The notes beneath the pieces are model-generated. The model did not search any database. It was not told the origin of the DNA and saw only the letters and a program-made list of their open reading frames with translations. From Butyrivibrio fibrisolvens 16/4 (GTDB lineage: Bacteria > Bacillota > Clostridia > Lachnospirales > Lachnospiraceae), in assembly GCA_000209815.1 (NCBI GenBank), contig FP929036.1:2392035-2456034 (forward strand): a DNA stretch of 64,000 nucleotides. Reading direction: 5' to 3'. Made by a program: the position numbers and the translations under genes. This document shows positions 44,036-47,833 of the stretch, piece after piece. Numbering within the stretch: position 1 is the first letter of the stretch; each line of letters starts with the position of its first letter.

Positions 44036-44908
44036 ATGTTAAATATTAATGAATATCAAGCCATACACGAAAACGTTAGTCACTTTGACTACAACATACC
44101 GTATAATACGTACCCTTGTACTATCCCACTGGACTTTGAAAGTGTGCCTCTTCACTGGCACGAGGATGTGGAATTCATCTATATTAAGAAGGGTTCAGGG
44201 GTTATTGTAATCGATGGAAATGAACATATAGTGAACGCCGGGGATATTGCATTTATTATCCCTGGAATGGTCCACGGTATTTTCCAGCTGGGGACAGATT
44301 CTATGGAATATGAGAATATTCTATTTGATGGAAAATTGTTTTCTTCCAGCACTGATGATTTCTTTGATACTTTTCTGCTGCCATTCTTTAGTAATACTGT
44401 AGAGGTTCCACACGTTTTCAGGCAGGGTGTCGCAGGCTATGAAAGTGTGCGAAAGTATCTTGATAGCAATGACAATATCTCTAGCCATCGTGAAGGGGCC
44501 TGGGGACTTGCCATAAAGGGCAATCTGTATTTATTGTTGTTTGATCTGGTGACTCTATATGAAAAAAAGAACGATTCTTCTGGCAAGAAGAAAATAGATA
44601 AGCTAAAACCCGTCATAAAATATGTTGAGCTTCATTATTCAGAGTCTATGACTGTGGCTGAAATGGCAGACATCGCTGGCTTTTCAGAGTCACATTTTAT
44701 GAGATTTTTCAAAGACACCTTTGGGGTGAGTTTTGTTACTTATTTAAATGATTACCGCCTTTCAATGGCGGCCCGCCTGTTGCTTGCTACCGAGGATACG
44801 ATTCTGGATATTTCACAACAGGTTGGCTTTGAAAACCTTTCCCACTTTAACAGGAAGTTTAAGGCAAAGTACGACAAGACCCCCAAGGAGTACCGCATAA
44901 ATAAGTAG
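44036..44908 (+). CDS. AraC family transcriptional regulator with cupin sensor
   Basis: 290 residues. N-terminal cupin (about 25-110: LHWHEDVEFIYIKKGSGVIVI, NAGDIAFIIPGMVHGI) that in this family binds sugars; C-terminal AraC double HTH (about 190-290: MTVAEMADIAGFSESHFMRFF and LDISQQVGFENLSHFNRKFK). Divergent from glgP, so glucan or sugar control of glgP is plausible. No Shine-Dalgarno; a -10 box lies 6 nt before the ATG. Its last 96 nt overlap the opposite-strand permease gene, so the conserved second HTH is coded antisense to a membrane helix. Confidence 0.93.
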   Translation: MLNINEYQAIHENVSHFDYNIPYNTYPCTIPLDFESVPLHWHEDVEFIYIKKGSGVIVIDGNEHIVNAGDIAFIIPGMVHGIFQLGTDSMEYENILFDGKLFSSSTDDFFDTFLLPFFSNTVEVPHVFRQGVAGYESVRKYLDSNDNISSHREGAWGLAIKGNLYLLLFDLVTLYEKKNDSSGKKKIDKLKPVIKYVELHYSESMTVAEMADIAGFSESHFMRFFKDTFGVSFVTYLNDYRLSMAARLLLATEDTILDISQQVGFENLSHFNRKFKAKYDKTPKEYRINK

Positions 44909-45949
44909 TGTATATAAATAATAGAAGTCGTGAATACTGCTTAGGTAATGAAATGCCGGGCAGTATTTTTGTATTACTCTGGCCTGCTTAAAATCTATAA
45001 ACACAGGTGATAATATGCCCGTCAGGATAATTAAAGCAGGAGTTAACATTCCAAGAGTTCTTATGTTTTTCAATAAAATTCTAAGTAGCATGGCAAGCAT
45101 TATTACCGTAAATTCGTATAACAGCAGTGCTGGAATTTCTCTAGCTAAGTTGGTAAAGATACCGCTGTATATAAGGCTAACTACAGTTATAATTGTTGGC
45201 GCCAAAAAGGCGATTCCATAGTATCCCAGGTCTCTTAAGAAGGTTAAGTTTGTCTTCCACCACAAGAATAATCCCTTATTTTGATCCTCCAGATAATACA
45301 TTGATGTGGCTATTCCACACACCATCAGCCACAGTGCTAGGATTCCACGAAGTGGCATAAGAATAACCCCAGCATCTTTTACATTGGAATCGTCTAAATA
45401 GCCTGGAACAAAAAGGCTCTTTGATAGACCAAGGCTGTCATAAGATTTTTCTAGTGATGCTAGCTGGGCTTCTGATGGTGTCCCATCATACACTTTCAGG
45501 GACATATAATTAATTAAAAGTTGCTTTGCCACCAAAGGGTATACGCGGGAGGCTGCAATTTCTCTTCCTAAAAGATGAGTTAGACCGCTCTCCCTGATTA
45601 CCACCTGTATCTTTGTGGATGGAATGGAATTTGAGGCAGCCTCATTAATCAGCCCATCCAAATCTTCCGGCACAATCCAGCCTTCCGTGAGAGTTTTGTT
45701 TGCCACTGCATCTGTTAAAGATTCACTGGAATCGTAGAACATATATTTTACTGCTTCGCAATCTGTGAGAGATTCTCGCAATGTAGCTGAGCTGACATCA
45801 GTTCCTGGAATATATACCCCAATGGTCAGAATGCCTTCATCTTCCTTTCCCACTTCCTTTAGGAGAAGCACCATTAAAGGCACCAGAAGAAGCATCAATA
45901 TGTAACTCTTTTTTCGCATCAGGCGTTTTAGTAAAAGAAGGTATCTCAT
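44813..45949 (-). CDS. ABC-2 type exporter permease subunit
   Basis: 378 residues. One N-terminal helix (about 15-31), an extracytoplasmic domain of roughly 150 residues (TIGVYIPGTDVSSATLRESL, EGWIVPEDLDGLI, REIAASRVYPLVAKQL), then five helices clustered at 195-365. This is the ABC2_membrane_3 / YhgE-like layout of drug or lantibiotic exporters. Third gene of an ATPase-permease-permease operon; shares 1 nt with the permease upstream. The final helix (LLIYAVLLGGLVVLCLKL) is coded opposite the araC-type gene's 3' end. Substrate unknown. Confidence 0.85.
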   Translation of the reverse strand: MRYLLLLKRLMRKKSYILMLLLVPLMVLLLKEVGKEDEGILTIGVYIPGTDVSSATLRESLTDCEAVKYMFYDSSESLTDAVANKTLTEGWIVPEDLDGLINEAASNSIPSTKIQVVIRESGLTHLLGREIAASRVYPLVAKQLLINYMSLKVYDGTPSEAQLASLEKSYDSLGLSKSLFVPGYLDDSNVKDAGVILMPLRGILALWLMVCGIATSMYYLEDQNKGLFLWWKTNLTFLRDLGYYGIAFLAPTIITVVSLIYSGIFTNLAREIPALLLYEFTVIMLAMLLRILLKNIRTLGMLTPALIILTGILSPVFIDFKQARVIQKYCPAFHYLSSIHDFYYLYTLLIYAVLLGGLVVLCLKLPVKVGKVFKANLL

Positions 45950-47166
45950 TATTTTATCTTCTGTCTCCTAACAAGTATTGATAAGAACAAAAATACAAAT
46001 ACGTACAGGGCCATAACCAAGATAAATTGGTACCGCCTGGTGGCCATATATCTGAAGGCTACTCCTGTAGGTAATACTTCTCCGATTTTTTGCAGAACAT
46101 CCGGGAAGAATGACTTTGGGTAAAAGTAACCGGATATGTAGGACATTCCCATATACAAAATGAAGGCTGCCAAAAACATATTTATTACTCCCTGGATGGT
46201 CTCAAACAAGAAAAATGCCAGGCTAGTATATAAAATTAACGCCGGTATTATATTAAAGGATAATTTAATTATATTGACATTGTTTGTAAGTCCGGTATTT
46301 AACAGCAATCTGTTAGTGGATGCATAAACTGCTGCTATAATTATTTCAGCACAAATCAGGTTAACTAATAGATAAGCCAAGTACTCAGACAGAATCTGTT
46401 TTCCTGCTCCCATCCCCTTAGAACTGATAAACTGATAGGTGGCTTTTTTCTTGCCAAGGAAGAAACTGATGGAGCAAAATGTCATCAATAATAGAAAAAA
46501 CAATCCTAAAGAAATCCAGTAATACTCAGGCGTTGATAGCCCTTCTGATAGTCCTAATTCAGAAAACTCTACCATATCATCCCTAGCCAGCATTGCCCCA
46601 ACATAAAGCAATAAAAGCTGGTCAATTTCAGGGTTTATTGCCTCTGCAGGAAATCCTGCATTTCTCATTTCTTTCTCAAGGCATAGTAATCCTTTTTCAG
46701 AACTTACTACAAGATTAGATGCAATATCTGCTAGTTCATCCATCATGATATTAGTTATCCCTCTTTGGCCAGAGGTGGCAAAATATTCTAAACTTATATC
46801 ATTAGATAACGCATTAAGGGAATTTATGAAATCATCTGTTATCAAAACATAGGCTGATACCTGTCCATCACGTAAAGCTGTCCTGGCATCTTTCTCATCT
46901 TCAAATGGAACAATATCTACCATAAAACGGCTCTCATCATTGTTCTCTAAAAGCTCTACACCCATAGTCAGCATATCATCTTTAGTAGAACCAACAACTC
47001 CCAGCTTATAGCGCATTTGTTCCTGACGATAACTTTCGCTATTAAGGATTCCATAAGCCAGAGCACCTACCACGGCAGCAACCACAACAGCCATAATAAG
47101 TATGCCAGGCATAAATCTAATTCCCCTTTTCAGTTGTACCCGGAAATAGTCTTTAAACCTAATCAT
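45949..47166 (-). CDS. ABC-2 type exporter permease subunit
   Basis: 405 residues from ATG 47166; a TTG start 15 nt earlier lies within the ATPase gene and has no better site. Same layout as its neighbour: helix about 17-40, an extracytoplasmic domain (KLGVVGSTKDDMLTMGVEL, SAYVLITDDFINSLN), then six helices (about 220-400). It overlaps neighbours by about 1 nt on each side, so it is translationally coupled and the pair forms a heterodimeric exporter with the ATPase. Confidence 0.85.
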   Translation of the reverse strand: MIRFKDYFRVQLKRGIRFMPGILIMAVVVAAVVGALAYGILNSESYRQEQMRYKLGVVGSTKDDMLTMGVELLENNDESRFMVDIVPFEDEKDARTALRDGQVSAYVLITDDFINSLNALSNDISLEYFATSGQRGITNIMMDELADIASNLVVSSEKGLLCLEKEMRNAGFPAEAINPEIDQLLLLYVGAMLARDDMVEFSELGLSEGLSTPEYYWISLGLFFLLLMTFCSISFFLGKKKATYQFISSKGMGAGKQILSEYLAYLLVNLICAEIIIAAVYASTNRLLLNTGLTNNVNIIKLSFNIIPALILYTSLAFFLFETIQGVINMFLAAFILYMGMSYISGYFYPKSFFPDVLQKIGEVLPTGVAFRYMATRRYQFILVMALYVFVFLFLSILVRRQKIK

Positions 47167-47167
47167 T

Positions 47168-47833
47168 CTACAATCGTCCAATTAAATGTGCCAAATCACC
47201 GTCGTAATTGTAAGGACGAAGCACTCCGTCCTTTAGGATATAACATTTATTGCACAGCTCCACTTCCTGCAGCTCGTGAGTGGAAATAATCATAGTTCCT
47301 CCGCGACTGCGAAAATCCTCGAAATAATCATATATTTCCCCTCGGCAAACCAGATCAAGGGCCGCCGTAGGTTCATCCATTAGCATCAGCTTTGGCCCGC
47401 CCTTCATTGCGCAGCCTATGGTAAGTCGCTTTTTCATTCCTCCCGATATTTTGCTGACAGGAACCTTTAGGAATTCATCTATCCCCAGAAGCTTTAAAAC
47501 ACCATTTTTAAGCTCCTTATCCAGTTCTTCCCTGCTGTACCACATTCTAAGATTGTCTCTGGCATTAAGCTCCTCAATCAAAGGATTTTCCTGAGGCACA
47601 TAGGCCACCTGCTTATTCCTAAGCTTTGCATTTGCGATTAAATCTTTTCCATCTATTGAAAAATAGCCACCATTCGGCGGCTGTAAACCCGCAAGAATGG
47701 ACAGTAGTGTAGATTTACCACTGCCATTTGCGCCCAATATTCCTATTATCTCACCTGGTGCCACATCAAAAGTCACGCCCTTTAGCACCTGATGCCTTCC
47801 GTAGCTTTTTTCAATCCCCTTTATTTCAAACAT
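47168..47833 (-). CDS. ABC transporter ATP-binding protein
   Basis: 221 residues, a single NBD. Walker A GILGANGSGKST (about 32-43), Q-loop VPQENPLIEELNA, signature KISGGMKKRLTIGCAM, Walker B KLMLMDEPTAALD, H-loop ISTHELQEVE. Drives the two permeases that follow. Promoter at 47865-47892; start behind GGTGAGGGAAAT. The regulator at 44036 is convergent, not necessarily the controller. Short NBD and twin permeases suggest a small-molecule or peptide exporter. Confidence 0.92.
   Translation of the reverse strand: MFEIKGIEKSYGRHQVLKGVTFDVAPGEIIGILGANGSGKSTLLSILAGLQPPNGGYFSIDGKDLIANAKLRNKQVAYVPQENPLIEELNARDNLRMWYSREELDKELKNGVLKLLGIDEFLKVPVSKISGGMKKRLTIGCAMKGGPKLMLMDEPTAALDLVCRGEIYDYFEDFRSRGGTMIISTHELQEVELCNKCYILKDGVLRPYNYDGDLAHLIGRL

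Follow-up and report, generated by a model that had tools for sequence, protein, structure and literature searches.

In E. coli, laoB and ano are examples of antisense overprinting. Long antisense overlaps in bacterial genomes are often dismissed as annotation errors, and the origin of a working overlap is rarely visible. In a survey of 338 genomes, the accessible part of which keeps 54 of 178 convergent overlaps longer than 60 bp as possibly true, such overlaps are said to arise through deletion or disruption of a stop codon or through a frameshift (PMC2478687). For convergent overlaps in E. coli, the accessible part of a second study places a putative rho-independent terminator inside the partner's coding sequence in 21 of 58 cases (PMC2174442). 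At the locus described here, the genes for an AraC-type regulator and an ABC exporter permease converge and share 96 nt. We consider it likely that this is a true, long-kept convergent overlap created by gene loss, with replacement of a membrane helix and with a terminator embedded in the partner gene.

Features are collected in Table 1, with positions counted in the window, i.e., the whole 64,000-nt stretch of DNA that was analysed. The two genes overlap codon on codon, their shared length being divisible by three and each second codon position pairing with a second position of the opposite strand: the permease stop is the antisense of AraC codon 260 (Ser TCA, 44813-44815), and the AraC stop TAG (44906-44908) is the antisense of permease Leu348. 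The regulator belongs to the AraC/XylS type, with a C-terminal domain holding two helix-turn-helix (HTH) motifs (PF12833, E 1.5e-22, residues 210-287; PF00165 in two stretches). Since the best PF00165 stretch spans residues 251-287 and the overlap codons 260-290, the overlap takes in most of the second HTH, while on the opposite strand 16 of the 19 residues in the most hydrophobic permease window are encoded within it. The initial annotation had described an antisense overlap of two intact reading frames, a conserved second HTH on one strand and the last permease helix on the other, and these elements were recovered at exactly the position it gave.

Table 1. Features of the convergent locus (window positions)
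Feature	Position	Strand	Details
AraC-type regulator	44036..44908	+	290 aa; orthologue in 29/29 genus genomes
ABC-2-like exporter permease 1	44813..45949	-	378 aa; orthologue in 27/29 genus genomes
Convergent overlap, codon on codon	44813..44908	both	96 nt
Second permease, same ABC cassette	45949..47181	-	PF12698, E 5.9e-19
ABC ATPase, same cassette	47168..47833	-	PF00005, E 1.1e-31
Permease C terminus, most hydrophobic 19-residue window	44861..44917	-	residues 345-363
Permease residues 352-378, antisense of AraC codons 261-287	44816..44896	-	alignment A3 of 21 permeases; codon view of 29 AraC genes
Permease residues 348-351 (LLIY) / AraC last residues INK and stop	44897..44908	both	alignments
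Terminator-like hairpin and U-run for the AraC transcript (IQKYCPAFHYLSSIH)	44932..44976	+	stem dG -15.8 here; 6/6 overlap genomes

The ABC-2 label of the window permease derives from its orthologues: the window protein itself had no match among Pfam or NCBIfam profiles, while 14 of 21 aligned orthologues matched PF12698 at E<=0.01 (best 1.3e-18). A profile of the 21 permeases found no solved relative at E<=0.1, and an AlphaFold model of the permease, built from a two-row alignment (pLDDT 40.9), was of too low quality for the helix to be located. With a crude ORF method applied to 464 kb of the genome, with ORFs unverified as genes, 96 nt was the longest overlap among 27 convergent pairs (each ORF at least 120 aa; 39 pairs at a threshold of at least 80 aa), and one other pair lay at -92 nt.

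Relatives were drawn from 29 genomes of one genus, Pseudobutyrivibrio according to one named record (Pseudobutyrivibrio sp. 49). Of the two facing genes, only the permease is missing anywhere (from G020 and G028), and in all 27 genomes that have both genes the two are convergent. Their spacing varies: the overlap measures 96 nt in five genomes (G000, G003, G009, G022 and G026), 105 nt in one (G005; together "the six" below) and 44 nt in two (G013 and G017), while a gap of 3-13 nt separates the genes in six genomes and one of 1.6-4.5 kb in 13. Counted from the start of the match, the 27 permeases are 358-389 residues long, against 378 for the window permease. Permeases ending about 32 residues earlier, which the initial annotation had proposed to look for as a sign of a lost stop codon or another indel, were found in none of the 27. 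Both genes are thus of normal length relative to their orthologues, and the overlap of 96-105 nt recurs in several species (6/29 genomes), as is characteristic of true long convergent overlaps.

The contents of the wide gaps point to how the overlap may have arisen. Gap contents were examined at 15 loci, including eight of the 13 wide-gap genomes, and in each of these eight the space between AraC and the permease was occupied by one or two ORFs of 537-815 aa. An N-terminal zinc ribbon (PF13240) was found in two of three intervening proteins tested, the G007 protein giving no match. When one of these proteins was used to search the 29 genomes, 12 of the 13 wide-gap genomes gave a match next to the permease; the exception, G007, carries a 537-aa ORF in its gap that the search did not match. 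The same query had no match anywhere in the six or in the six genomes with gaps of 3-13 nt, and in the two 44-nt genomes it had weak N-terminal matches on other contigs only. We infer that the intervening gene was lost in the lineages with 96-105 nt overlaps, 44-nt overlaps and 3-13 nt gaps, a gain by the others being less likely. In the wide-gap genomes (loci L059, L061 and L073), this gene is a fast-evolving ORF of about 540-815 aa.

In the alignments, the permease matches relatives that carry SLLIY (such as G010, G011 and G016) through LLIY; beyond it the relatives keep their own helix and end, whereas the six read antisense AraC (alignment A3 holds 21 of the 27 permeases). Residues 352-378, comprising the second part of the last helix and a basic tail, appear to replace the ancestral C terminus, with the junction presumably at this point. 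AraC proteins of most relatives end in REYR plus at most one or two residues and those of the six in KEYR[IV]NK, whose final [IV]NK is encoded opposite LLIY. The DNA at 44897-44908 is apparently original permease sequence that would now give AraC its INK and stop codon. A deletion joining both 3' ends would explain the permease switch and the AraC tail alike. The AraC tail of G028, which lacks the cassette, reads KEYRLNQ, and to judge from this genome part of the tail may predate the overlap, which counts against a simple single event.

The 44-nt overlap has a different junction and a different phase, 44 not being a multiple of three, and at least two junctions therefore exist; in this phase, the overlap may encode a third to a half of the final helix in G013 and G017. 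Permeases of G017 and G013 (L026 and L027) are 358 residues long, and their C-terminal ends, too, are read from the antisense of the AraC tail. In the permease tree, the six form one group with support 100/100, apart from the 44-nt pair, whereas the AraC trees place G013 and G017 among the six with moderate support, and one clade for the six in the AraC tree was not rejected (p 0.148). G001, in which AraC is cut by a contig end, was omitted from the AraC tree and from codon statistics. The trees thus conflict over whether the 44-nt and 96-nt overlaps are independent, and with that over the number and order of the presumed deletions.

The sequence of events that we favor would begin with an ancestor in which AraC and the permease faced each other with another gene between them. 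A deletion would have removed that gene and cut into both 3' ends. With its final 15-20 codons gone, the permease frame would have continued into the opposite strand of AraC, while AraC would have lost about its last codon and acquired a stop from permease DNA. The permease would have stayed usable because the antisense of the AraC C terminus offered a ready-made membrane helix followed by a basic tail. Selection on AraC codon choice, as in the use of the rare Pro codon CCC, could then have preserved or refined the helix, and a new AraC terminator would have formed within permease codons.

The genetic code itself may account for the ready-made helix. In the codon-on-codon phase, Lys, Glu and Tyr codons give Leu, Phe, Val and Ile on the opposite strand, so that the AraC tail FKAKYDKTPKEYR reads as AVLLGGLVVLCLK in antisense. 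Because Lys, Glu and Tyr abound at the AraC C terminus, its antisense is a hydrophobic helix, which could insert into the membrane and leave the permease usable. The Phe codon TTT and the Leu codon CTT both give Lys on the opposite strand, and the permease tail is basic because it is the antisense of the Phe- and Leu-bearing HTH. A "2 over 2" antisense hydropathy rule, by which hydrophilic sense residues give hydrophobic antisense ones, is described in the accessible part of the literature source (PMC10400600). Among the 23 AraC genes without a 96-105 nt overlap, this phase runs open for 20-50 codons (of at most 50 examined), with a best 15-residue antisense hydropathy of 1.0-2.4. Since the phase is already open and hydrophobic in these genes, the propensity existed beforehand. 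All 27 permeases have a hydrophobic stretch near the C terminus, their best 19-residue hydropathy being 1.6-2.9.

Codon usage in the six suggests that the helix has also been maintained. The antisense helix is open and hydrophobic in 6/6, with a hydropathy of 2.17-2.62 in the helix part versus 0.66-2.06 in 22 others. Counting R, K, D, E, P, W, H, Q, N or a stop as bad for a membrane helix, the helix part holds a single bad residue per genome in the six, versus 1-4 in the others (one also in G011). When the AraC gene of each of the six was recoded according to the codon usage of its genome, the observed hydropathy was reached or exceeded at a frequency of 0.005-0.108, the values being modest in three of the six (0.065, 0.090 and 0.108). 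A neutral synonymous simulation on the AraC tree, which starts from majority codons and hence tests upkeep and not origin, gave P 0.083 for all six being open, P 0.020 for as few bad residues in the helix part, P 0.002 for open frames and few bad residues jointly, and P 0.011 for hydropathy. At invariant amino-acid columns, P was 0.0034 for overlap hydropathy, compared with 0.18-0.996 in 24 partly overlapping control windows of AraC; for bad residues, it was 0.071 over the whole overlap (not significant) and 0.019 in the helix part. The six genomes are related, and these statistics do not represent six independent trials.

Synonymous differences and the choice of one Pro codon bear on the same question. 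In the six, the AraC synonymous difference is 0.313 in the overlap versus 0.517 in the adjoining codons 221-259, and versus 0.469 expected from the AraC-tree simulation; the AraC amino-acid difference in the overlap is 0.073. Elsewhere the decrease between the corresponding regions is slight, at 0.508 versus 0.538 in other genomes and 0.258 versus 0.312 in the group with 3-13 nt gaps. For the permease, the synonymous difference is 0.13 in the overlap versus 0.42-0.61 in 20-codon blocks of codons 1-320. AraC codons 1-70 (44036-44245) in the six are as low as the overlap (0.29-0.33), and codons 1-60 show 0.30 in the six and 0.487 in other genomes, possibly reflecting another element on that stretch; because these 5' codons are equally low, the synonymous-difference test alone is not specific. 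The overlap Pro codon is CCC in 6/6 and in 3/23 other genomes, while CCC makes up 6/121 background Pro codons in the same genes of the six. On the opposite strand CCC reads Gly, whereas every other Pro codon would give Trp or Arg there. Overall, the overlap bears signs of selection on both frames, as in overprinted (dual-coding) sequence, within these six related genomes. Constraint on both strands, as the initial annotation had proposed, thus finds support in the overlap of 6/29 genomes, in the drop in AraC synonymous difference and in antisense hydropathy above the neutral level.

The same annotation had held that no terminator separates the genes. Overlapping genes leave no room between them, but the claim is not supported in view of a putative AraC terminator hairpin inside the permease gene in 6/6 genomes. 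It lies 24-60 nt past the AraC stop, within the permease codons for IQK(C/Y)(C/Y)PAFHYLSSIH, and has up to 14 pairs and a stem dG of -15.8 to -18.9. In each of the six, this stable hairpin stands directly before a U-run on the AraC strand, the sequence signature of an intrinsic (rho-independent) terminator. Its minimum free energy (MFE) is -16.8 to -23.5, compared with means of -5.3 to -6.5 after the permease had been recoded synonymously 1000 times (P<=0.002 in all six genomes, each taken separately). The AraC and permease transcripts would overlap even so, by roughly 160 nt if the hairpin works. For the permease transcript, the terminator scan returned weak candidates only (dG about -8) in 4/6 and none in the window genome or G009.

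A standard terminator scan, limited to loops of 3-8 nt, reported nothing at the junction, and the hairpin was found with a custom scan. In the 44-nt and 3-13 nt groups, the custom scan found no strong hairpin around the AraC stop, though its reach is limited, as it reports nothing for G024 despite an inverted repeat and T-run visible by eye. In G028 (L064), where the cassette is missing, a strong terminator-like hairpin lies at +8 after AraC; its stem letters resemble those of the embedded hairpin of the overlap clade, through common origin or chance.

Three other explanations deserve consideration. A lost stop codon, a frameshift or a misannotation could have lengthened the permease recently, and 124 of the 178 convergent overlaps longer than 60 bp were classed as 3' extensions in the accessible part of the survey (PMC2478687). 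We rejected this explanation, which seems extremely improbable here: several species have their permease stop at this same place within AraC, an overlap of the same kind is shared by six genomes in which the other five permeases are 59-65% identical to the window permease, there are no orthologues about 32 residues shorter, and the DNA past the junction is AraC and not an old permease end. Alternatively, the overlap may be a tolerated accident, with the functional part of the permease stopping short of the overlap and with an antisense tail that amounts to harmless read-through, its hydrophobicity a by-product of AraC residues. Most codon choices do give a hydrophobic antisense, as the open frames of the 23 other AraC genes illustrate, and neither the probability that all six are open (0.083) nor the count of bad residues over the whole overlap (P 0.071) is striking. 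However, every one of the 27 permeases holds a hydrophobic C-terminal stretch, the hydropathy of the helix exceeds the neutral simulation, and the Pro codon that spares the opposite strand a Trp or Arg is used in 6/6. We therefore regard an accident as unlikely.

The hairpin, in turn, could be a chance structure in permease codons rather than an AraC terminator. In one pair of the stem both partners differ between genomes (G-C in five genomes, A-U in the window genome, with Tyr for Cys), but this single compensatory change is not significant as covariation (88/500 shuffles as high), and the clades with 44-nt overlaps and 3-13 nt gaps have no strong hairpin close to the AraC stop. On the other hand, stability beyond synonymous recoding and a U-run on the AraC strand recur in all six, and of the 21 permeases outside the clade, the 12 tested at these codons, among them two from the 44-nt group, fold weakly (-2.4 to -7.9, P 0.018-0.761). 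The permease synonymous difference in the hairpin codons is 0.23, compared with 0.42-0.61 in the 20-codon blocks of codons 1-320. A chance fold is accordingly quite improbable, and a role of the hairpin in ending the AraC transcript appears the better reading.

If an overlap created by gene loss is indeed the correct reading, antisense hydropathy of the genetic code would be a simple reason why both proteins survived. What are likely stages of the process stand side by side in one genus, from a gene between the two, to a gap of a few bases, to a 44-nt and then a 96-nt overlap, and about 160 bases carry a DNA-binding motif, a membrane helix on the opposite strand and a putative terminator. More speculatively, the C-terminal ends of regulators may form a back-strand store of helices and basic tails, drawn on twice here, once codon on codon in the clade with 96-105 nt overlaps and a second time by G013 and G017. 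Loss of a gene beside a regulator could in that case swap a transporter's last helix in one step and couple two genes physically. We offer this tentatively, as a possibility that we would not call probable. The locus lends itself as a natural case in which to study dual-strand constraint and how protein segments are born.

Like the cases in the accessible part of the 338-genome survey (PMC2478687), this overlap is convergent, longer than 60 bp and common to several species, with both partners of normal length. Unlike the cases described there, it appears to reflect the loss of a whole intervening gene, which would have replaced a C terminus, and the non-overlapping stage persists in relatives. 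As in the E. coli cases, one gene's putative terminator is embedded in the coding sequence of its convergent neighbor, but compared with what the accessible part of that study describes (PMC2174442), the hairpin here was followed over six species, tested against recoding and absent from 12 of the 21 outside permeases, those tested. A partial literature search found no earlier description of gene loss swapping a transporter's last helix for the antisense of a regulator HTH with earlier stages preserved, which is weak evidence of novelty. The segment resembles antisense overprinting in being read from the opposite strand of a conserved gene; unlike laoB or ano, it appears to be a replacement part of an old membrane protein and not a new orphan gene. 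Convergent overlaps and embedded terminators are known, and a replaced helix with its earlier stages preserved is an unusually clear variant of them.
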